Source of the DNA: Halopiger aswanensis
GTDB lineage: Archaea > Halobacteriota > Halobacteria > Halobacteriales > Natrialbaceae
Assembly: GCF_003610195.1 (NCBI RefSeq)
Contig: NZ_RAPO01000002.1
Coordinates: forward strand, 1 to 64,000
DNA: 64,000 bases
Direction of reading: 5' to 3'
Positions 42,948 to 51,652 of this stretch are shown here, piece by piece. The position numbers were made by a program, and so were the translations under genes. Within the stretch, counting starts at the first letter, position 1. Each line of letters starts with the position of its first letter. The notes under the pieces were generated by a model. The model was not told the origin of the DNA. It did no database searches and worked only from the letters and a program-made list of their open reading frames with translations.

Positions 42948-43079
42948 GACCTGAATCCTCGAGACGAGTACCGCGAGTCGTCGCTCTGCAACGAGATCGG
43001 AAAGCGCTACATCACGCTGCTGAACGAGGCCGGCGTGAATCGCGGACCGCCGCCCGCTCACTCGAGAACCGCCGGGACA
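42948..43079 (+). pseudogene. Coding remnant of unknown family
   Basis: An open frame of 44 codons lacking a start, immediately behind a stop at 42945. It reads DLNPRDEYRESSLCNEIGK and continues with RYITLLNEAGVNRG, a composition like real protein and unlike noncoding DNA. It is cut off by the convergent lipoprotein gene at 43081. I take it as the stump of a lost gene; the family is not recognised. Confidence 0.35.
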
Positions 43080-43080
43080 G

Positions 43081-43734
43081 TTAACAGGACGTCGTCGTGT
43101 TCGTCTTGATCCCGCTGTCAGTAAACGAGACGACCGTCCGTGACTCCTCGCAGGGCGATCCCGATCGCGAGATCGACGACGTGTTTCTGACCCCGTCGGT
43201 CTCGAGCGTCGTCTCGTAGGTCCCCGGCTCGCCGATGATGATCTCGAGGGCCGTCTCGGCGGGCAGTTCGTTCGTCCCCTCGAGCACGGTCGTCTCGTCG
43301 CGATCGATCCGGATCGAGAGGTCGCGACCGCGATCCGATTCGTTCTCGATCGTGAGACGGTGATAGATGGTCTCGTCATCGATAGCTGCCGTCACGTCGG
43401 CAGCTTCCTCGTCGTCTGTCACGTTTTCGTCCTCGTCCTCATCCTCGTCCTCGTCCTCGTCTTCGGAGTCGTCGAGCACCGTCGTCGCAATCAGCACGAA
43501 CGGGTCAGTTTCGAGCGTCTCGAAGGTCAGTTCCGTGTCGTCCTCGAGCACGTTGTTCGCCTCGGTTTCAGTCTTGTTTTCAGCGTTTGCTCCGGTCTGT
43601 CCCGCTGTCTCCGTCGATTCGTTCCCCCCGGTATCGCCGCCGCCGTTCGACGAGTCATCAGCGGCACCGAGACAGCCTGCGAGGAGCCCGAGTCCGACGC
43701 CGGATGCGATCCGAACGAGCGTGCGACGGTCCAT
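43081..43734 (-). CDS. Predicted Tat lipoprotein with acidic linker
   Basis: 217 residues. Signal MDRRTLVRIASGVGLGLLAG with the lipobox Leu-Ala-Gly-Cys at Cys21 and twin Arg at 3-4: a Tat-exported lipoprotein. A disordered Gly/Glu/Asn part follows and an (ED)n run of about 14 residues encoded by repeated TCG-TCC triplets (about 43426-43465). The C-terminal 100 residues are strand-rich (IYHRLTIENESDRGRDLSIRID) and look like a small beta-sandwich. Function unknown. Confidence 0.7.
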   Translation of the reverse strand: MDRRTLVRIASGVGLGLLAGCLGAADDSSNGGGDTGGNESTETAGQTGANAENKTETEANNVLEDDTELTFETLETDPFVLIATTVLDDSEDEDEDEDEDEDENVTDDEEAADVTAAIDDETIYHRLTIENESDRGRDLSIRIDRDETTVLEGTNELPAETALEIIIGEPGTYETTLETDGVRNTSSISRSGSPCEESRTVVSFTDSGIKTNTTTSC

Positions 43735-44102
43735 ATTCGGTGGGGCCACATCGAGGGTCAAACCACTTTTTCATCGATCCGTGACCGTCAGTCCCGCCGA
43801 TACGCAGGACCGTTCGGTCCCGATTCATCGGTTCGGCTGTCTCGAGGCCCTGCTCTACGATCATCTGCGGACAACGTATTGGCACCCGTGAGAGACCGGT
43901 TCGGCGACCGTTTTGGGTCTCCTTACCGCACTGGCAGCCGGCTATCTTTCATCCGGGTCACATGACCGGACGGAGACCCGATCTGCGCGCAAAGTTTCGA
44001 CTACAGCGTCGCAATCGAGTGTTTGGCTTGCAAACGATAGCCCTCGTTTATTCCCGTTTCCAGTGAACGCCCGGTGCCCGTTGCGGGCAGATACACCTAC
44101 CC
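43735..44102. other. Intergenic stretch without genes
   Basis: 368 bases between the lipoprotein and the first exported protein of the fibre locus. The only element I can point to is TTTATT at about 44047-44052, which may serve the rightward gene with a leader of about 30 bases. No repeat or structured element stands out. Confidence 0.4.
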
Positions 44103-44450
44103 ATGTTTGGACGGAAGATCGGTCAGCGGCTACTCACAGTGATGGTCGTCGCCGGACTGCTGGCGATGACCGTCGGAATCGGCGCGGTAACAGCACAGGA
44201 AAGCGACGCGGTCGAAGAGTCGGTCGAGACCGGCGATGAAACCGAGAGCGTCTCGATCCAAAACGAGAGTACGCAAACGGTCGAGGAGAGCGTGACGGAG
44301 ACCGAAACGTCGTTCGCGACGGACGGAACCGACGACTCGTCTGACGGCGATGGCAGCATCGTCGACTTCGACGATGACTTCGCGAGCGGCGGCTTCGCCA
44401 CCGATATCGTCGATCAGACGCTCGGAAACGTCGGCAGCATGTTCGAATAA
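44103..44450 (+). CDS. Small acidic exported protein
   Basis: 115 residues. A Sec signal (about 1-31: RRLLTVMVVAGLLAMTVGIG-type core, cleavage after VTAQ) followed by a Glu/Thr/Ser stretch and an Asp-rich end with hydrophobic patches (FASGGFATDIVDQTLGNVGSMF). It shares the '...TAQE' cleavage context with the paralogues at 46854, 48338 and 49604. It is convergent with the repeat protein gene, which suggests membership of the same locus (inference). Confidence 0.65.
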   Translation: MFGRKIGQRLLTVMVVAGLLAMTVGIGAVTAQESDAVEESVETGDETESVSIQNESTQTVEESVTETETSFATDGTDDSSDGDGSIVDFDDDFASGGFATDIVDQTLGNVGSMFE

Positions 44451-44609
44451 CCGGTCTCGTTTCGATTCGTCTCGACGGGAACGCCCGTCGCAGTCCATTT
44501 TTCACGCTGTCGACCGACGCTCGCGGCTTCGGTCGTGCAACGGACGGCAAAAAACAGGATACCGAAAGAGGTGGATAGCTGATCGAACGACGATCGCGTA
44601 ACGGTTCAG

Positions 44610-46166
44610 TTACGCTGCAGTCCAGAGGTTCGTCGCGGCGACGGAACCGAACTGGATGTTCTCGTTCTCCTGCATGGTCACCTGTGCAGCGTCGGCGCTG
44701 TCACCGTTTTCGGCCACGGCGATGGCGGCCTGCTGCTCGTTGACGTTCTCCTGCGTGATGAACTGCACCTGGGCGAGCTGGGCGCTCGCGTGCTGCTGGG
44801 CGTCGTTCGTCTGCAGCGCGTCGGTGTCGTACGAGAGGCCTTCGATGCCGTCGACGTCTTCGCCGCCCACGGTCACGCTCGTGGTCGAAGTCACGACCGC
44901 GTTCTCGTACTGGTGGCTCGGGCCGGCGTAGACGTTCAGCGCGTCCGCGAAGCCGACCTGCGAGTTGATGTTGGACTGGTAGGCCAACTGGACGGCGGTG
45001 GCGTCGCTCTCGTTGGTCGCGAGCGCCAGCGCCGTGTTCTGCAGGTTGACGTTCATCTGTTCGGCGGTCTGGTTCTGGGCCACCTCGGAGGTCGCCGTCT
45101 GGACCTTCTCGCCGCTCTTCTTGTGGTGGTCTCCCTCCTTGTCGGCGAGCAGCGTCTCGACCGAGCGCTCGGTGTCGAGGACCTGGGTGTCGTCGTCGAG
45201 TCCCGCGGTCGCGACGTTCATGCCGCCGAGCGACTGGATGACGTTTTCGGCAGTCGCGCTGCCGAGCTGCTCGTTGAGGTTCGTCTGTTCCGTGATCTGG
45301 ATGGCGGTCGCGACGCTGCCGTTGCCGACGGCGATTGCGACGGCGCCGTCCTGCTGGTTGATGTTCTCCTGGGTGACCGCCTGACCCTGCTGGACCGCCG
45401 CCGACGCGGCCTGGTCCTCGAACTGGCCGTTACCCACGTAGACGTTCGTCGCGTTCGCAACGCCCCGCTGCAGGTTCTCGTTGGACTGCTGGGACTGCTG
45501 GAGGGCGGTCGCTTCGCTGTTGTTCTCCGCGATCGCGAACGCGATGTTCTGTTCGTTGTAGTTGAGCTGGCCGACTTCCTGGACCTGCGTCACTTCGGCT
45601 TCAGCCGTCTGGTCGGCGTCGTCGGCGTCGAGTGCCGCCTTATCGCCCTTCTTGTCGGCGATGCCCCAGCCGTCGAACGACTTGCCGTCGCCGTCGCCGA
45701 TGAGGATCGTGACCTCACCGACGTCCTCGAACTGCGTCTGGACCGCGTGGGCGCTGTCCGCGGCGACGTCAGCGTTCTGCTGGTTGTCGTTGTACTGCGA
45801 GGCCTCCTGCACCGCCGTGGCCTCGCCGCCGTCGATCGAGATCGACGTCGCGTTCTCCTGCTGGTTGATGTTGACCTGATCGACGTCCTGGTACTGCGAG
45901 ACCTCGACGTCGTTCAGCTCGTCGCCGGACGCGTGCGCGTCGATGTATTCCTCGAGGGTCATATCCCCGAGGTCGGCGCCGAAGACCAGGTACAGGCCTT
46001 CGTCGTCCTCGAGCACGTGGTGCGTGCCGGCGTTCGCGTTGCCCTCAGTCTCGGCTTCTTCGGCGGCGGCGGCCGCCGGTAGACCGACCGAGAGCATCGC
46101 TACGGCGACTATACATGCCATAAGAACCGTCGTACACTGTGAACGTATCGTCGTCGTGTTTGTCAT
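44610..46166 (-). CDS. Exported Q/N-ladder repeat protein (candidate amyloid fibre subunit)
   Basis: 518 residues with a Sec signal (about 1-35, ending AAAAAEE). Five modules, at about 87-140, 188-245, 254-312, 358-415 and 459-515, each contain two copies of Q-x3-Q-x-N-x-N-x-Q. All ten copies fit exactly: core Gln at 97, 124, 200, 227, 266, 294, 370, 397, 472 and 499, with 27-28 residues inside each module. Between them run AxAxA strands. Regular Gln/Asn ladders with alternating small residues are what curlin-type beta-solenoid amyloids show; this is not a canonical CsgA repeat. Membrane or matrix location is inferred. Confidence 0.75.
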   Translation of the reverse strand: MTNTTTIRSQCTTVLMACIVAVAMLSVGLPAAAAAEEAETEGNANAGTHHVLEDDEGLYLVFGADLGDMTLEEYIDAHASGDELNDVEVSQYQDVDQVNINQQENATSISIDGGEATAVQEASQYNDNQQNADVAADSAHAVQTQFEDVGEVTILIGDGDGKSFDGWGIADKKGDKAALDADDADQTAEAEVTQVQEVGQLNYNEQNIAFAIAENNSEATALQQSQQSNENLQRGVANATNVYVGNGQFEDQAASAAVQQGQAVTQENINQQDGAVAIAVGNGSVATAIQITEQTNLNEQLGSATAENVIQSLGGMNVATAGLDDDTQVLDTERSVETLLADKEGDHHKKSGEKVQTATSEVAQNQTAEQMNVNLQNTALALATNESDATAVQLAYQSNINSQVGFADALNVYAGPSHQYENAVVTSTTSVTVGGEDVDGIEGLSYDTDALQTNDAQQHASAQLAQVQFITQENVNEQQAAIAVAENGDSADAAQVTMQENENIQFGSVAATNLWTAA

Positions 46167-46235
46167 GATTCGTTTGACGTGAACCGTGAGAGTCTTCCTT
46201 TCTGTAACTCCACGGCGTAAACCGTCGTATCCCGA

Positions 46236-46257
46236 TGACAGACTTTGTTATCTGTCA
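46236..46257 (-). promoter_or_regulatory. Inverted repeat upstream of the Q/N-ladder gene
   Basis: TGACAGA (46236-46242) and TCTGTCA (46251-46257) are perfect inverted copies with an 8-base spacer. They lie 70-91 bases before the start of the repeat-protein gene, upstream of a possible TATA region, where haloarchaeal activators or repressors bind. It is not repeated elsewhere in the locus. The rest of 46258-46636 shows nothing I can name. Confidence 0.45.
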
Positions 46258-46636
46258 GTTTCGGCAAATATGAAGCGACCTACCGTCTCGAAGGCCGATA
46301 CTTACGGCGAGAAACGGGTTGCTTCGCTTGCAGGCGGTTCGATCTGATGGTGTGCTAACGCACCTCAGTCGCTAGTCAGCCGTCACTGGCGCTCTCGAGG
46401 CCTCGAAATCGCCGGCTACGTATCGAAAGGAGTGACTGTTTCACGGGACAAAGGCCGAGGTTACCGGAAACTGCTCCCAAACCGCCGCGGGTCATACTCG
46501 GTATTTCGGGGACGGCGCCGCGTAATTCTGTTGGCACAACGAGGAGCGAACAGTTTGCTAAGCCAATTGTATCGATCGGAGTGTACGGTTGCGGTGAGTA
46601 AAAGCAAAACCAACAGATTGAGATTGATGGTTCCAG

Positions 46637-46853
46637 CGCTTCTAATGCGAGTCTTCCCCTGAAACTGTGGTCCGGGTTGAAGTAGAACTCCGTGATGAGC
46701 AGCGATTGGGCAACGCGTCACAGCGGGGATGCGTCGGGAGTCGGTTGGTACCTCCCGCGACGAGCGGCGGTCTCGCGGTATGGGGTCGACGTTCCGTTGC
46801 GGAGCTGGTACTCCCGTGTGATGCGTGCCTCGTAAACAGCTAAAAACTCAACT
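46637..46853 (+). repeat. Conserved leader, copy 1 (fibre paralogue unit)
   Basis: Starts around CTTCTAATGCGAGT and, from CCCTGAAACTG (46657), runs nearly unchanged to the ATG at 46854. The same leader precedes the genes at 48338 and 49604. It contains a conserved hairpin CGTCGGGAG...CTCCC-GC-GACG and ends with an AT-rich box (CGTAAACAG). Its length and conservation are unusual for haloarchaea, whose messages are mostly leaderless. Confidence 0.75.
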
Positions 46854-47438
46854 ATGAAGCGCGCACTCGCAATCACACTGACGGTAGCAATCTTCGGCGC
46901 CCTTGCAGTCATGGGGGCGACCGGAGCGGTTATGGCACAGGAAGACGGAAACGCGACGAACGTCTCCGATCTCATCGACCAGACTCAGGACGTCGACGCG
47001 GATCAGGACCTCGAGTCGGGTGACGCGAACGTCGACGTGAATGTCGACCAGACGAACAACAACGCGCAGACGGCCAGCGCGACGTCCGGTGACGCGGTCG
47101 CTGGTAGCTCCGGTGGCGGTGCCGGTGCCGCGGCCGCTGCGGACCACTACAAGGGCGGCGGTGGCGCTGTCGCTACTGATGCCGGCGCCAGTACTGGTTC
47201 GACGGCGTTCTCCACCGCTGAAGTCGCTCAGAACCAGGACGTCGATCAGACCAACGCTGCGCAGGTCGACGCTACTGCCGACACCAGCATTGAGGCTGAG
47301 CAGAACGTCGAACCCGAGCAAGAGGCTGACGTCGAAGACAACACGTTCAACGAGCCCGGTGACGACCTCGACGAGGACACTCTGGCAAGCATCGACGCTA
47401 ACCTGCAGGAACTCGTCGACGAGTTCGTCAGTTCCTAA
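46854..47438 (+). CDS. Exported Q/N-motif protein, paralogue 1
   Basis: 194 residues. Sec signal MKRALAITLTVAIFGALAVM...VMAQ (cleavage after 29). The mature part has Q66-x-N68-x-N70-x-Q72, a Gly/Ala-rich segment (84-110), Q128-x3-Q132-x-N134 in EVAQNQDVDQTN, and an acidic C-terminus with a short helix. EVAQNQ also occurs in the 518-residue repeat protein (361-366), so both belong to one sequence group. It is 80-90 percent identical by eye to paralogue 3. The role of a minor or nucleating subunit is inferred. Confidence 0.72.
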   Translation: MKRALAITLTVAIFGALAVMGATGAVMAQEDGNATNVSDLIDQTQDVDADQDLESGDANVDVNVDQTNNNAQTASATSGDAVAGSSGGGAGAAAAADHYKGGGGAVATDAGASTGSTAFSTAEVAQNQDVDQTNAAQVDATADTSIEAEQNVEPEQEADVEDNTFNEPGDDLDEDTLASIDANLQELVDEFVSS

Positions 47439-47456
47439 TTCAGTATATACTGAATT
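47437..47456 (+). terminator. 20-bp perfect palindrome at the stop of paralogue 1
   Basis: AATTCAGTATATACTGAATT is its own reverse complement and begins inside the TAA stop codon (47436-47438). In RNA it can form a 10-bp or looped stem at the 3' end of the message. Paralogues 2 and 3 do not have it. It may be a terminator or stabiliser, or a site for a DNA-binding protein. Confidence 0.45.
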
Positions 47457-47486
47457 TAATTCGCCTACCTACTTTTATTGCGCCAA

Positions 47487-48075
47487 TTATAGCGCGTCAA
47501 CTGCTGTTGTTTCTGCCTGGATAATCACGTCTCGAATCGCCAAATTAGCCTCTCGAGCCACGGCCTTCGCGTCTTCGTACTCGACACTGACATCGTAGAC
47601 CTCGCCGTCGACGTCGCTCGCGATTTTCACGGTCACTTCGTAGGTCTCGCCGTCGATTTCGAGATCGACCGTTATCGAACACCCGCTGTACAATCCACCG
47701 ATGCGTCCCCCACATCCTGCACTCCTAACGTCCTCGTCTCCTCAAGCATTACCAGTCATACGTCGAGCGACGCGCTGCCGATCCTCGGGCTTGCAGATGA
47801 CCTTCACGAGGTGGCCCGGGCGGTACTTCTTCATCGTCGCCGGGAGAACGAAACGTCACGCGCGTCCGCGAGCGTCTCCGGCAGATCGCCAGCATCCCCG
47901 GCGTCGCGTCGTCAAGATTCGTCTCGAGGACGGCGATGTCGTTTTTCACGAGCGACCTGTCGCCCTCGCCGACCAGCACCCGGAACACGTTCGGATGCGG
48001 ATCGAGGTCGTAGCCGCCGGCGCCGTAGCCCGACGCCGCGACCTCGAGCGCCCCGGTCGCCGTCTCGATCGAAGG
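47487..48075 (-). pseudogene. larC: larC 3' remnant A
   Basis: Matches about 50291-50870 of the intact larC along its length. The last 66 codons are still open (SITVDLEIDGETYEVTVKIA... ending DVIIQAETTAVDAL), but upstream of 47690 the frame is broken by small insertions and deletions, so it cannot encode the enzyme. It carries the 3' third of the gene only. It is the trailing part of a duplicated unit. Confidence 0.85.
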
Positions 48076-48131
48076 TGTAGCGTTAGGAACGATGAAATAT
48101 TCATGGGTGGAAACGGATCAACGGTTGTAGT

Positions 48132-48337
48132 GGTTCTAATACGAGTATTGCCCTGAAACTGTAGTCCGGGTTGAAGTAGGACTCCGTGATGAGCAGCGAC
48201 TGGGCAACGCGTCACAGCGGGGATGCGTCGGGAGTCGGTTGGTACCTCCCGCGACGAGCCGCGGCCCCGCCGAACGGGGTCAACGTTCCGTTGTGGAGCG
48301 GTACCCCCGTGTGGTGTATGCCTTATAAACATCAACT
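48132..48337 (+). repeat. Conserved leader, copy 2
   Basis: Second copy of the leader, from GGTTCTAATACGAG to the ATG at 48338, with a few substitutions and a 10-15 base deletion just before the start (TTATAAACATCAACT instead of the longer A-rich spacer). The stem CGTCGGGAG/CTCCCGCGACG is kept. The junction with the larC remnant (48072-48131) matches that of copy 3. Confidence 0.75.
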
Positions 48338-48664
48338 ATGAAGCGCGCACTCGCAATTACATTGACGGTAGCGATCTTCGGCGCCCTCGCAGTCATGGGG
48401 GCCACCGGAGCAGTTGTGGCACAGGAGACGGCGTTCTCCACCGCTGAGGTCGCGCAGAACCAGGACGTCGATCAGACCAACGTTGCTGACGTCGACGCTA
48501 CTGCCGACACCAGCATCGACGCCGAGCAGACCGTCGAACCCGAACAGGAGGCTGACGTCGAAGACAACACGTTCAACGAGCCCGGTGACGACCTCGAGGA
48601 GGAGACGCTGGCAAACATTGACGCTAACATAGAGGAACTCCTCGATATCATCCGTAACGGTTAG
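48338..48664 (+). CDS. Exported Q/N-motif protein, paralogue 2 (shortened)
   Basis: 108 residues. The signal peptide is almost identical to those of paralogues 1 and 3, but Gln29-Glu30 is joined directly to TAFSTAEVAQNQDVDQTN; the first Q/N motif and the Gly-rich segment (about 86 residues) are missing as one in-frame deletion. The acidic C-terminus is retained and ends earlier. It may still be made and exported, possibly as a capping variant, or may be decaying. Confidence 0.65.
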   Translation: MKRALAITLTVAIFGALAVMGATGAVVAQETAFSTAEVAQNQDVDQTNVADVDATADTSIDAEQTVEPEQEADVEDNTFNEPGDDLEEETLANIDANIEELLDIIRNG

Positions 48665-48758
48665 TGGCTAATAACGGGGTGGGATTCATTTATCCACTCT
48701 TATTACACTAAAAATTACGAACAGTAGCAACTGTTCGCCCAAATATTGGTTTGAGAAA

Positions 48759-49322
48759 TCACAGTATCCCAACTGCTGCCGTTTCTGCCTGGCAGATTAC
48801 ATCTTGGATTGCCAAGTCAGTCTCTTGAGCCACGGCCTTCGCGTCCTCGTACTCGGTATTGATGTCGTAACCTCGGCTCCGCTCGCGATTTTCACGGGTG
48901 CCTCGTACGTCTCTCCTCGAGTTTCAACTCCATCGTCTCGAACTCCCGCTATGTAATCCACTGATGTGTCACTCCCAGATCCCGCCCCCAACGTCCCGGT
49001 CTCCTCGGTGTGCGCTCGAGCGACGCGCTGCAGTCTTCGAGCTTGGAAGTGACCCTCACGAGGTAGCCCGAGCGGGACCTCTTTTTATCACTACAGGATG
49101 GATGTCACGCGCGCTCGCATCCGAGAACGCCTCCAGGCGCCCAGTACCTCCGCACCGCGCCATCGAGGTTCGGTTCGAGGACGGCAACGTCGTCCTTCAT
49201 GAGTATCCTCTCCTCGGCTGACGAGCGCCGGGAGTACGTTCGAGTGTGGATCGAGGCCGTCGCCCCGGCGCCGTAGCTAGATACCTCGAACTCAAGCGCA
49301 GGGAGTTCGCCGGCTCGATCAA
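48759..49322 (-). pseudogene. larC: larC 3' remnant B
   Basis: Aligns with the 3' third of larC (about 50291-50890) but is more eroded than remnant A: many substitutions, several frame breaks and a run of missing bases near 48870. It ends at the same sequence junction as remnant A (CTCGATC-AAAG-TGTAGC), so both copies descend from a unit that already carried this junction. Confidence 0.8.
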
Positions 49323-49381
49323 AGATGTAGCATTAGGAACAATAAAATTTCCCATCAAAGGTAACAGATCAACAGCTGTAG

Positions 49382-49603
49382 CACTCCTAGGTCACGTATA
49401 TCCCTGAAACTGTGGTCCGGGTTGAAGTAGGACTCCGTGATGAGCAGCGACTGGGCAACGCGTCACAGCGGGAATGCGTCGGGAGTCGGTTGGGACCTCC
49501 CGTGACGAGCGGCGACCCCACCGAACGGGGCCGACGTTCCGTTACGGAGCTGGTACCCCCGTGTGATGCGTGCCTCATAAACAGCAACAGCAAACACTCA
49601 ACT
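49382..49603 (+). repeat. Conserved leader, copy 3
   Basis: Third copy of the leader, from CTCCTAGGTCACG to the ATG at 49604, with CCCTGAAACTGTGGTCCGG at 49402 onward. It has the longest spacer between CATAAACAG and ATG (about 26 bases). It precedes the copy next to intact larC and is probably closest to the ancestral arrangement. Confidence 0.75.
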
Positions 49604-50209
49604 ATGAAGCGCGCACTCGCGATTACACTGACGGTAGCAATCTTCGGCGCCCTCGCAGTCATGGGGGCGACCGGAGCGGTTATGGCACAGGAAGACGGAA
49701 ACGAGACGAACGTCACCGACCTCATCAACCAGGCCCAAGATGTCGATGCGGATCAGGACATCGAGTCGGGCGACGCGAACGTCGACGTGAGCGTTGACCA
49801 GACGAACAACAACGCGCAGACGGCCAGCGCGACGTCCGGTGACGCGTTCGCCGCTGACGGCTCCGGTGGCGGTGCTGGCGCTGCGGCCACTTCGGATCAC
49901 GCCAAGCAGAAGGGTGGCGGCGCTGCGGCTGCCGCTGACGGTGGCGGCGCTGGTGCGACGGCGTTCTCCACCGCTGAGGTCGCGCAGAACCAAGACGTCG
50001 ATCAGACCAACGCTGCTGACGTCGACGCTACTGCCGACACCAGCATTGACGCCAACCAGACCGTCGAACCCGAGCAGGAGGCTGACGTCGAAGACAATAC
50101 GTTCAACGAGCCCGGTGACGACCTCGACGAAGACACTCTGGCAAACATCGACGCTAACCTGGAGGAACTCCTCGATATCTTCGACGGGAGTGTAGTGTCT
50201 AACAGCTAG
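49604..50209 (+). CDS. Exported Q/N-motif protein, paralogue 3
   Basis: 201 residues, close to paralogue 1: the same signal peptide to VMAQ, Q-x-N-x-N-x-Q in VDQTNNNAQTA, a Gly/Ala/Lys segment slightly different in sequence (KQKGGGAAAAADGGG), EVAQNQDVDQTN, and the acidic tail NEPGDDLDEDTLANID ending in a short helix. It converges on intact larC, 81 bases from its stop. The identity of the mature N-terminal half with paralogue 1 despite decay of the larC copies suggests selection or gene conversion. Confidence 0.72.
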   Translation: MKRALAITLTVAIFGALAVMGATGAVMAQEDGNETNVTDLINQAQDVDADQDIESGDANVDVSVDQTNNNAQTASATSGDAFAADGSGGGAGAAATSDHAKQKGGGAAAAADGGGAGATAFSTAEVAQNQDVDQTNAADVDATADTSIDANQTVEPEQEADVEDNTFNEPGDDLDEDTLANIDANLEELLDIFDGSVVSNS

Positions 50210-50290
50210 GTAGAATCCATTTCTCCCCTTTTATTGCACTACTCATTACGAAGAGTGGCAACTATTCACCCAAAATAGTGACTTGGGAAA

Positions 50291-51652
50291 TTACAGTACC
50301 CCAACTGCTGCCGTTTCTGTCTGGATGATTACATCCCGAATCGCCAAGCCAGTCTCTCGAGCAACGGTCTTCGCGTCGTCGTACTCGGCACTGACGTCGT
50401 AGACCTCGCCGTCGGAATCCCTCGCGATTTTCACGGTGACCTCATACGTCTCGCCGTTAAGTTCCAACTCCACCGTCTCGAACTCCCGTTTGGCAATCCA
50501 CCGATGCGTCGCTCCCGCATCCCGCACCCCTAACGTCCCCGTCTCCTCGGCGAGCGCTCGAGCGACGCGCTGCCGATCTTCGGGTTTGCAGATGACCTTC
50601 ACCAGATGCCCCGGCCGGGATTTCTTCATCGTCGCCGGCAGAATCGAAACGTCACGTGCGCCCGCGTCCACGAGGGTTTCTTGCAGTCCGCCCAGGACCT
50701 CCGGCGTCGCGTCGTCCAAGTTCGTCTCGAGGACGGCGATATCGTCTTTCACGAGCGACCCCTCACCTTTCCCGACCAGCGCCCGGAGCACGTTCGGGTG
50801 CGGATCGAGGTCGTAGCCGCCGGCGCCGTAGCCCGACGCCTCGAGCTCGAGCGAGGGGAGTTCCTCGACGCCGTCGGCGAAGTGCGCGAGGATCGCCGCG
50901 CCGGTCGGGGTCAGGAGTTCGCGGTCGACGGGGCCGCCGCGCAGCGACCAGTCCGCGTTTTGGGCGATCTCGACCACCGCGGGCGTGGGGACGGGGTACT
51001 CGCCGTGGCTCATCCCGACGGTGCCGCCGCCGGTCGCCAGCGGCGTCGTGACGATGCGATCGGGCTCGAGGTCGTTGACTAACGCCGCCGCGCCGACGAT
51101 GTCCGCGATCGCGTCGTCGGCTCCGACCTCGTGGAAGTGAATGTCCTCGAGCGACTCGCCGTGGACGCTGGCCTCGGCCTCGCCGAGACGCTTAAAGATC
51201 GCGAGCGCGTCGTCTTCGACGGCAGCGGGGAGGTCCATCTCCGCGACGATGTCACGGACTTCCTGATAACTGCGGTGTGGCCCGTGGCCTTCGGCGTGGA
51301 CGTGGTCGTGGTTGTGATCGTGCTCATGGTCGTCGTCCGCGTGGTCGTGCCCGTGATCGCCGTGATCCTCGTGACTATGATCGTGACCGCGGTCGTGATC
51401 GTGTCCGTGTCCGTGTTCGTGTCCCTGGCCGCTCGAGTCGCCGTCGCCGGTCAGCAGCACGTCGACCGTCGTCGACGCGATCCCGCACTTGACCGTCTCG
51501 TCGATCCGGTACTCGAGTTCGAGCGCGGCTTCGACCGGCTCGAGGGCGTCGGGGTCGGCCCCGGCGTCGAGCAGCGCGGCGAGGAGCATGTCGCCGCTGG
51601 CACCCATCCGGCCGTCGAACGCGAGGACGTTCGCGCCAGTGTTCGTGGTCAT
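50291..51652 (-). CDS. larC: Nickel-pincer cofactor synthesis protein LarC
   Basis: 453 residues. LarC (DUF111) inserts nickel into the lactate-racemase pincer cofactor with CTP. N-terminal block VLAFDGRMGASGDMLLAALLDAG, metal-site region GADDAIADIVGAAAL and GGGTVGMSHGEYPVPTPAV, and C-terminal ETNLDDATPEVLGGL and GVRDAGATHRW. A linker (78-126) carries about 20 histidines alternating with Asp/Gly, likely nickel storage. larA and larB are not in the window. The start at 51652 removes a 20-residue extension. Confidence 0.93.
   Translation of the reverse strand: MTTNTGANVLAFDGRMGASGDMLLAALLDAGADPDALEPVEAALELEYRIDETVKCGIASTTVDVLLTGDGDSSGQGHEHGHGHDHDRGHDHSHEDHGDHGHDHADDDHEHDHNHDHVHAEGHGPHRSYQEVRDIVAEMDLPAAVEDDALAIFKRLGEAEASVHGESLEDIHFHEVGADDAIADIVGAAALVNDLEPDRIVTTPLATGGGTVGMSHGEYPVPTPAVVEIAQNADWSLRGGPVDRELLTPTGAAILAHFADGVEELPSLELEASGYGAGGYDLDPHPNVLRALVGKGEGSLVKDDIAVLETNLDDATPEVLGGLQETLVDAGARDVSILPATMKKSRPGHLVKVICKPEDRQRVARALAEETGTLGVRDAGATHRWIAKREFETVELELNGETYEVTVKIARDSDGEVYDVSAEYDDAKTVARETGLAIRDVIIQTETAAVGVL

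Follow-up and report, generated by a model that had tools for sequence, protein, structure and literature searches.

A large secreted protein built of Gln/Asn ladder repeats, encoded in a 64,000-nucleotide stretch of the Halopiger aswanensis genome (this stretch is referred to here as the window), belongs to a real, conserved and previously unnamed haloarchaeal secreted family with linked small partners. The repeats, their conservation, an alternation of charge along the units, secretion-type N-termini, the linkage to partners and variants with a PGF-CTERM tail were all observed. The link between the large ladder gene and the small secreted partner genes is new, and no description of the ladder family or of similar haloarchaeal relatives was found in searches of open-licence full texts. 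That the two kinds of protein form a curli-like two-component extracellular beta-solenoid system, as a surface or matrix structure, is a reading given an even chance of being correct.

Repeat architecture of the large protein

The large protein and its five modules, the latter delimited by motifs and HMMs, are encoded as follows.

44610..46166, minus strand: large ladder protein (518 aa) with a Sec-like signal at the N-terminus and five modules, each made of two 27-28 residue units
45762..45917, minus strand: module 1, residues 84-135, cores 97/124
45432..45611, minus strand: module 2, residues 186-245, cores 200/227
45231..45413, minus strand: module 3, residues 252-312, cores 266/294
44925..45104, minus strand: module 4, residues 355-414, cores 370/397
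44619..44798, minus strand: module 5, residues 457-516, cores 472/499

Ten exact copies of Q-x3-Q-x-N-x-N-x-Q in five pairs were found in the 518-residue frame, with the core Gln residues where the earlier note had placed them and with core spacings of 27, 27, 28, 27 and 27 residues within the pairs, confirming the pairing at 27-28 residues. The spacers, which had been described as variable, bring the core-to-core distance to 75-76 residues at three gaps, but the spacer between modules 2 and 3 is nearly absent (core to core, 39 residues), and the AxAxA runs said to lie between the copies are looser than claimed, module 1 reading ATSIS. The C-terminus lies two residues past module 5. Gln makes up 10.8% and Asn 8.3% of the protein, and the spacers are acidic.

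Module HMMs, one per module, were built from 11 relatives with the window sequence left out. These retrieved 5/5 modules of the window protein with scores of 15.7-112.8 bits (best score among 200 shuffles, 3.1 bits), and the ladder repeats are therefore real and recovered without use of the motif itself. Composition-preserving shuffles of residues 31 onward averaged 0.04 occurrences of QxNxNxQ, the shorter core, with a maximum of 2 (5000 shuffles). Units within the window protein share an amino acid identity of 0.37-0.59 and a nucleotide identity of 0.58-0.74 (seven pairs compared). Chance or recent duplication as the origin of the ten units was ruled out by the shuffles, the divergence of the units and the relatives-only HMMs. 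Among 39 long homologues, the window protein included, ten strict copies were counted in 18, eleven in one and 4-9 in the rest; the ten-unit layout is old.

No support was obtained for a suspected short repeated domain (YLVFGAD...) preceding modules 1 and 2, a second match above 3 bits being found in 0/48 homologues. Separately, a Cys at residue 18 (46113-46115), in the signal region, is invariant across the 12-sequence alignment and lies seemingly too early for a usual lipobox.

Unit consensus and charge alternation

The module consensus reads QxAxAxVxQxQxVxQxNxNxQxxAxAxAx(turn)SxATAxQxxxQxNxNxQxGxAxAxNV. Charged residues were counted at positions -10 to +14 with five selected columns left out. 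In second units (n=185, from 48 homologues) the positions of ladder parity were charged in 9/1480 cases as against 537/2220 for the alternate parity, and in first or lone units (n=239) the corresponding counts were 71/1912 and 690/2868, with the alternation fading past +8. Since charge is nearly absent on one parity, the pattern fits a strand that is buried on one side and faces the brine on the other. Comparison with a sister species identified no change at any of the 50 ladder residues, whereas 51/466 other residues had changed, and across the relatives compared the motif positions are exact while spacers and alternate residues diverge.

Relatives, range and secretion types

A full-protein profile built from 12 full-length sequences matched 98/392 genomes of the order, of which 87 hold genuine relatives; the count of relatives leaves out 11 N-terminal-only matches (about the first 40-110 positions), which fall in family f5 and in the g55 genomes of f4. 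By family, 74 of the 87 genomes belong to that of the window, 10 to f17, 2 to f14 and 1 to f4. The module profile, run against 392 genomes from across the phylum, gave matches in 15, every one in the window's family. The large protein is a conserved secreted haloarchaeal protein, mainly of Natrialbaceae and of some Haladaptataceae. Named matches come from Natronorubrum, Natrononativus, Haloterrigena and plasmids of Haladaptatus and Halomicrococcus, and are annotated either as 'hypothetical protein' or as 'PGF-CTERM sorting domain-containing protein'; further Natrialbaceae contigs matched as well.

Among 48 long homologues, a PGF tail was found in 6, a twin-arginine pattern in 10 and neither in 32. 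The tail is absent from the window protein by pattern, Pfam and NCBIfam, and TIGR04126 exceeded the NCBIfam cut-off in 3/4 tailed relatives tested, as did PF18204. This tail is shared with the PGF-CTERM (TIGR04126/PF18204) archaeosortase substrates; the ladder family differs from these in being defined by its repeats, not by a tail. Two of the Tat-type copies (L044 and L045) have strongly lysine-rich C-terminal tails, which is odd for an acidic halophile proteome.

Small partner proteins and the locus

The small partner genes, overlooked in the earlier note, say more about function than the repeats do. In the window these are arranged divergently from the large gene, the intergenic region being defined by ORF positions and the start of the third small protein being chosen to match the first.

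46167..46853, no strand: intergenic region separating the large gene from the first, divergent small gene
46854..47438, plus strand: small ladder protein 1 (secreted, 194 aa), divergent partner
48338..48664, plus strand: small ladder protein 2 (secreted, 108 aa), weak module-profile match (E 0.53 genome-wide)
49604..50209, plus strand: small ladder protein 3 (secreted, 201 aa), weak module-profile match (E 7.5)

The three small genes are tandem duplicates that include about 200 nt of upstream sequence, with 79-96% identity (window 46635-50175), the intergenic part 46635-46840 recurring upstream of the other two small genes. The duplicated stretches also contain a repeated piece (47498-47597 and 48770-48869), and a minus-strand frame at 47487-47693 has matches on the LarC side of the locus in 20/33 loci; this frame and the repeated piece look like remnants of the 3' part of LarC that the duplications left behind.

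ORFs called mechanically at 48 loci were taken as small ladder proteins if they were 80-400 aa long, net acidic, and carried a signal-like hydrophobic run and the ladder motif. Passing ORFs numbered 53/423 in the divergent 0-5 kb upstream of the large gene versus 2/2,515 elsewhere, that is, in all other positions and orientations at the 48 loci with bins summed. At least one divergent small partner was present in 30/48 loci, the other 18/48 having none by the same criteria. A partner adjoins 28/32 copies with neither PGF nor Tat features, 2/6 PGF copies and 0/10 Tat-type copies, counts that ignore kinship and include some PGF and Tat loci with little upstream sequence (e.g. L039, L045 and L101). 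The module profile of the large protein scored at least 10 bits on 35/53 small proteins and on 0/528 of the listed shuffled copies. Three partners at other loci (L053 12100-13095, L031 3487-4452 and L035 6621-7568) carry an additional cysteine-containing domain C-terminal to the ladder.

The cluster lies between RadB and LarC/CDC48 in most Natrialbaceae loci, the flank frames in 33 loci including RadB in 20, LarC in 21 and CDC48 in 23. On two Haladaptataceae plasmids, of Haladaptatus and Halomicrococcus, the neighbours are others (MmgE/PrpD, phosphosulfolactate synthase) and the small divergent genes are still present. This linkage, kept despite different neighbours, is the best evidence that the large and small proteins act together. 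Two further genes beside the large gene in the window, one for a lipoprotein-like acidic protein (43081-43761, minus strand) and one for a 115-aa secreted acidic protein (44103-44450, plus strand), were found in only 5/33 and 3/33 loci, respectively.

Structure prediction

An AlphaFold2 model from the 12-row alignment had a mean pLDDT of 46.3, with the repeat blocks mostly at 50-70 and the modules nearly all strand. Modules 2 and 3 were also modelled with 36 rows, yielding a mean pLDDT of 52.3 and a first core of each pair that was partly coil. Both models are of low confidence and give mostly strand in the modules, and they disagree on the first unit of the pair; the average given for published CsgA models is 83 +/- 9 (PMC10192328). 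A Foldseek search of the PDB with the first model returned seven matches, none of them significant (best E 2.9), among which were FapC, a subunit of curli and further proteins of beta-helical build; these were given no weight as evidence. The pattern that had been called the signature of a stacked solenoid, an invariant polar ladder with freedom elsewhere, holds, but the fold is one that we infer from sequence.

Comparison with curli and other known systems

The earlier note had proposed a family separate from CsgA, and this is borne out by the PF07012 and hhalign results. PF07012 reached its cut-off in 0/41 haloarchaeal genomes and 0/60 modules and gave no match to the window protein; in a control set of 14 genomes one was over the cut-off, and the three with any signal include E. 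coli. Comparison of A2 and A3 with E. coli K-12 CsgA/CsgB by hhalign gave a probability of 0.1, with a target alignment of two rows only. CsgG (PF03783) was absent from the one genome searched, that of the window itself, and a haloarchaeon would not be expected to have a pore of the outer-membrane type. Curlin membership was rejected on these three grounds, and by every sequence test made the ladder family lies outside the curlin family. The ladder unit ([S/A]-x5-Q-x3-Q-x5-Q) is closer to curlin (S-x5-Q-x4-N-x5-Q in E. coli CsgA) than the earlier note had thought.

Like curli, the ladder proteins are secreted, are built of short repeats in which every other position of the ladder holds an invariant Gln or Asn and the ladder face carries small residues, and come as two subunit types with neighbouring genes. 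The curli kernel is given as N-x-psi-x-psi-x-Q-X-G-X-X with a period of 23 +/- 5 residues (PMC10192328), and the ladder unit profile shows a related spacing but neither this canonical kernel nor its period. The ladder unit spans 27-28 residues instead of the curli period reported there (PMC10192328), its first linker has three residues where that of curli has four, its second strand reads Q-N-N-Q, Asn standing where curli has a hydrophobic core pair, and its units come in pairs set apart by spacers.

Two further systems described in the literature resemble the family in part. The CS-class CsgA-like proteins, exemplified in Sinorhizobium, have a hydrophilic core, the inner face of their curli-type kernel being polar, and occur outside csg operons and with no csg machinery (PMC10192328); as described there, they retain the canonical N-x-psi-x-psi-x-Q-x-G-x-x kernel, which the ladder family does not. 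The sheath protein SH of Methanospirillum hungatei, likewise archaeal and extracellular, is an amyloid-like beta-arch protein, as the ladder protein may be, and its sheath is made of antiparallel beta-arches (PMC10593813), unlike the build proposed for the ladder family.

Proposed assembly and alternative explanations

In the curli-like reading, the large protein would be an extracellular structural protein whose 27-28 residue units would most likely each be a single coil of a beta-arch or beta-solenoid, with small residues and the amides Q-Q-N-N-Q on one strand face, stacking into ladders, and an acidic opposite face exposed to brine. Its partners, small secreted proteins with one or two related units encoded divergently alongside, would stack with it edge to edge to give an extracellular fibre, coat or matrix. 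The large protein may act as scaffold or nucleator, tethered to the cell surface in some species by an archaeosortase anchor, and the small proteins as added subunits, by analogy with CsgB/CsgA. The solenoid fold, the co-assembly, fibre formation and a role in biofilm or at the surface are all parts that we infer, and the low pLDDT, the partly coiled first units of the second model, the lack of a significant Foldseek match, the lack of a partner at 18/48 loci (all 10 Tat-type copies among them), the weak matches of the small proteins in the window's genome and the lack of a secretion or assembly helper are points against them. A more specific version is put forward tentatively: a haloarchaeal functional amyloid of two components that shares no descent with curli, with a five-module nucleator or scaffold that in some lineages is fixed by archaeosortase, small single-module fibre subunits that duplicate in tandem and change fast, and a core zipper made largely of asparagine amides, suiting folding in saturated brine.

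The strongest alternative, which we regard as rather unlikely, is a surface or secreted adhesin that does not polymerise, its modules being five short self-contained beta-solenoids strung as beads and the small proteins being paralogues or ligand-binding decoys. The variable acidic spacers between modules would suit such a design, as would the mixture of PGF-CTERM-anchored copies and copies with Tat-like signals, which serve the export of folded proteins, and the ten Tat-type copies with no partner nearby. It is opposed by the divergent small partner at 28/32 copies of the group with neither feature, which favours joint function, and by the open edges that two-unit modules would have, which would tend to stack.

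A component of an envelope lattice, such as an S-layer-associated or sheath-like coat in place of free fibres, is improbable. PGF-CTERM anchoring is the route taken by haloarchaeal S-layer glycoproteins and occurs in 6/48 copies, yet the window copy has no anchor, and the absence of the family from most sampled genomes of the order argues against a core part of the envelope. The Methanospirillum sheath provides a precedent for an amyloid-like archaeal coat (PMC10593813), but its protein is built differently, of antiparallel beta-arches, in the same account (PMC10593813).

It is very unlikely that the product is a low-complexity, Q/N-rich acidic protein of no defined fold whose repeats are kept by biased composition and duplication. 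The low AlphaFold2 confidence, the Gln and Asn content with acidic spacers, and the recent tandem duplication of the adjoining small genes could be read in this way, but motif positions remain exact while spacers and alternate residues diverge, the units are only 0.37-0.59 identical in amino acids and 0.58-0.74 in nucleotides (seven pairs), and one parity is nearly free of charge. A true but divergent CsgA/CsgB homologue brought into haloarchaea, already disfavoured, is scarcely credible given the PF07012, hhalign and CsgG results, in spite of the unit spacing near that of E. coli and of the one archaeal protein with regularly spaced curli-like repeats reported in an earlier survey (PMC3521004), which could itself be a relative of the ladder family.

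If the curli-like fold is true, the curli principle of amide ladders on a beta-solenoid, with a nucleator and a subunit, would have arisen again in archaea, and would have done so with no outer membrane, by a simpler route of export and anchoring. Biofilms of Haloferax volcanii show amyloid staining, HVO_1403 being one genetic candidate named (PMC4180959); for an amyloid-like matrix in other haloarchaea, the ladder family offers candidates that are secreted and genetically linked.

Family searches and a related protein

None of the Pfam, NCBIfam, PHROG or PDB sequence families covers the large protein. The Pfam/NCBIfam matches were weak, scattered and all below cut-off, with Coat_X giving sub-cut-off matches in 8/60 modules (best E 0.018), and matches to a PhoQ PDB profile (E 0.034 and 0.24) were taken as chance. 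A viral origin was rejected, with no match among phage records and no PHROG for the large protein, and Rfam gave no match in 43000-51000. The idea of an antimicrobial precursor was dropped because the known haloarchaeal example, as described, acts through alpha-helices (PMC12893001). Elsewhere in the genome of the window, a separate Tat-type protein (L098 8203-8865; G000 contig C3, about 482.2-482.9 kb) has at its end a short segment of Q/N ladder like that of the small partners (59% over 49 residues), and the segment seems to be fused in this protein to other domains.
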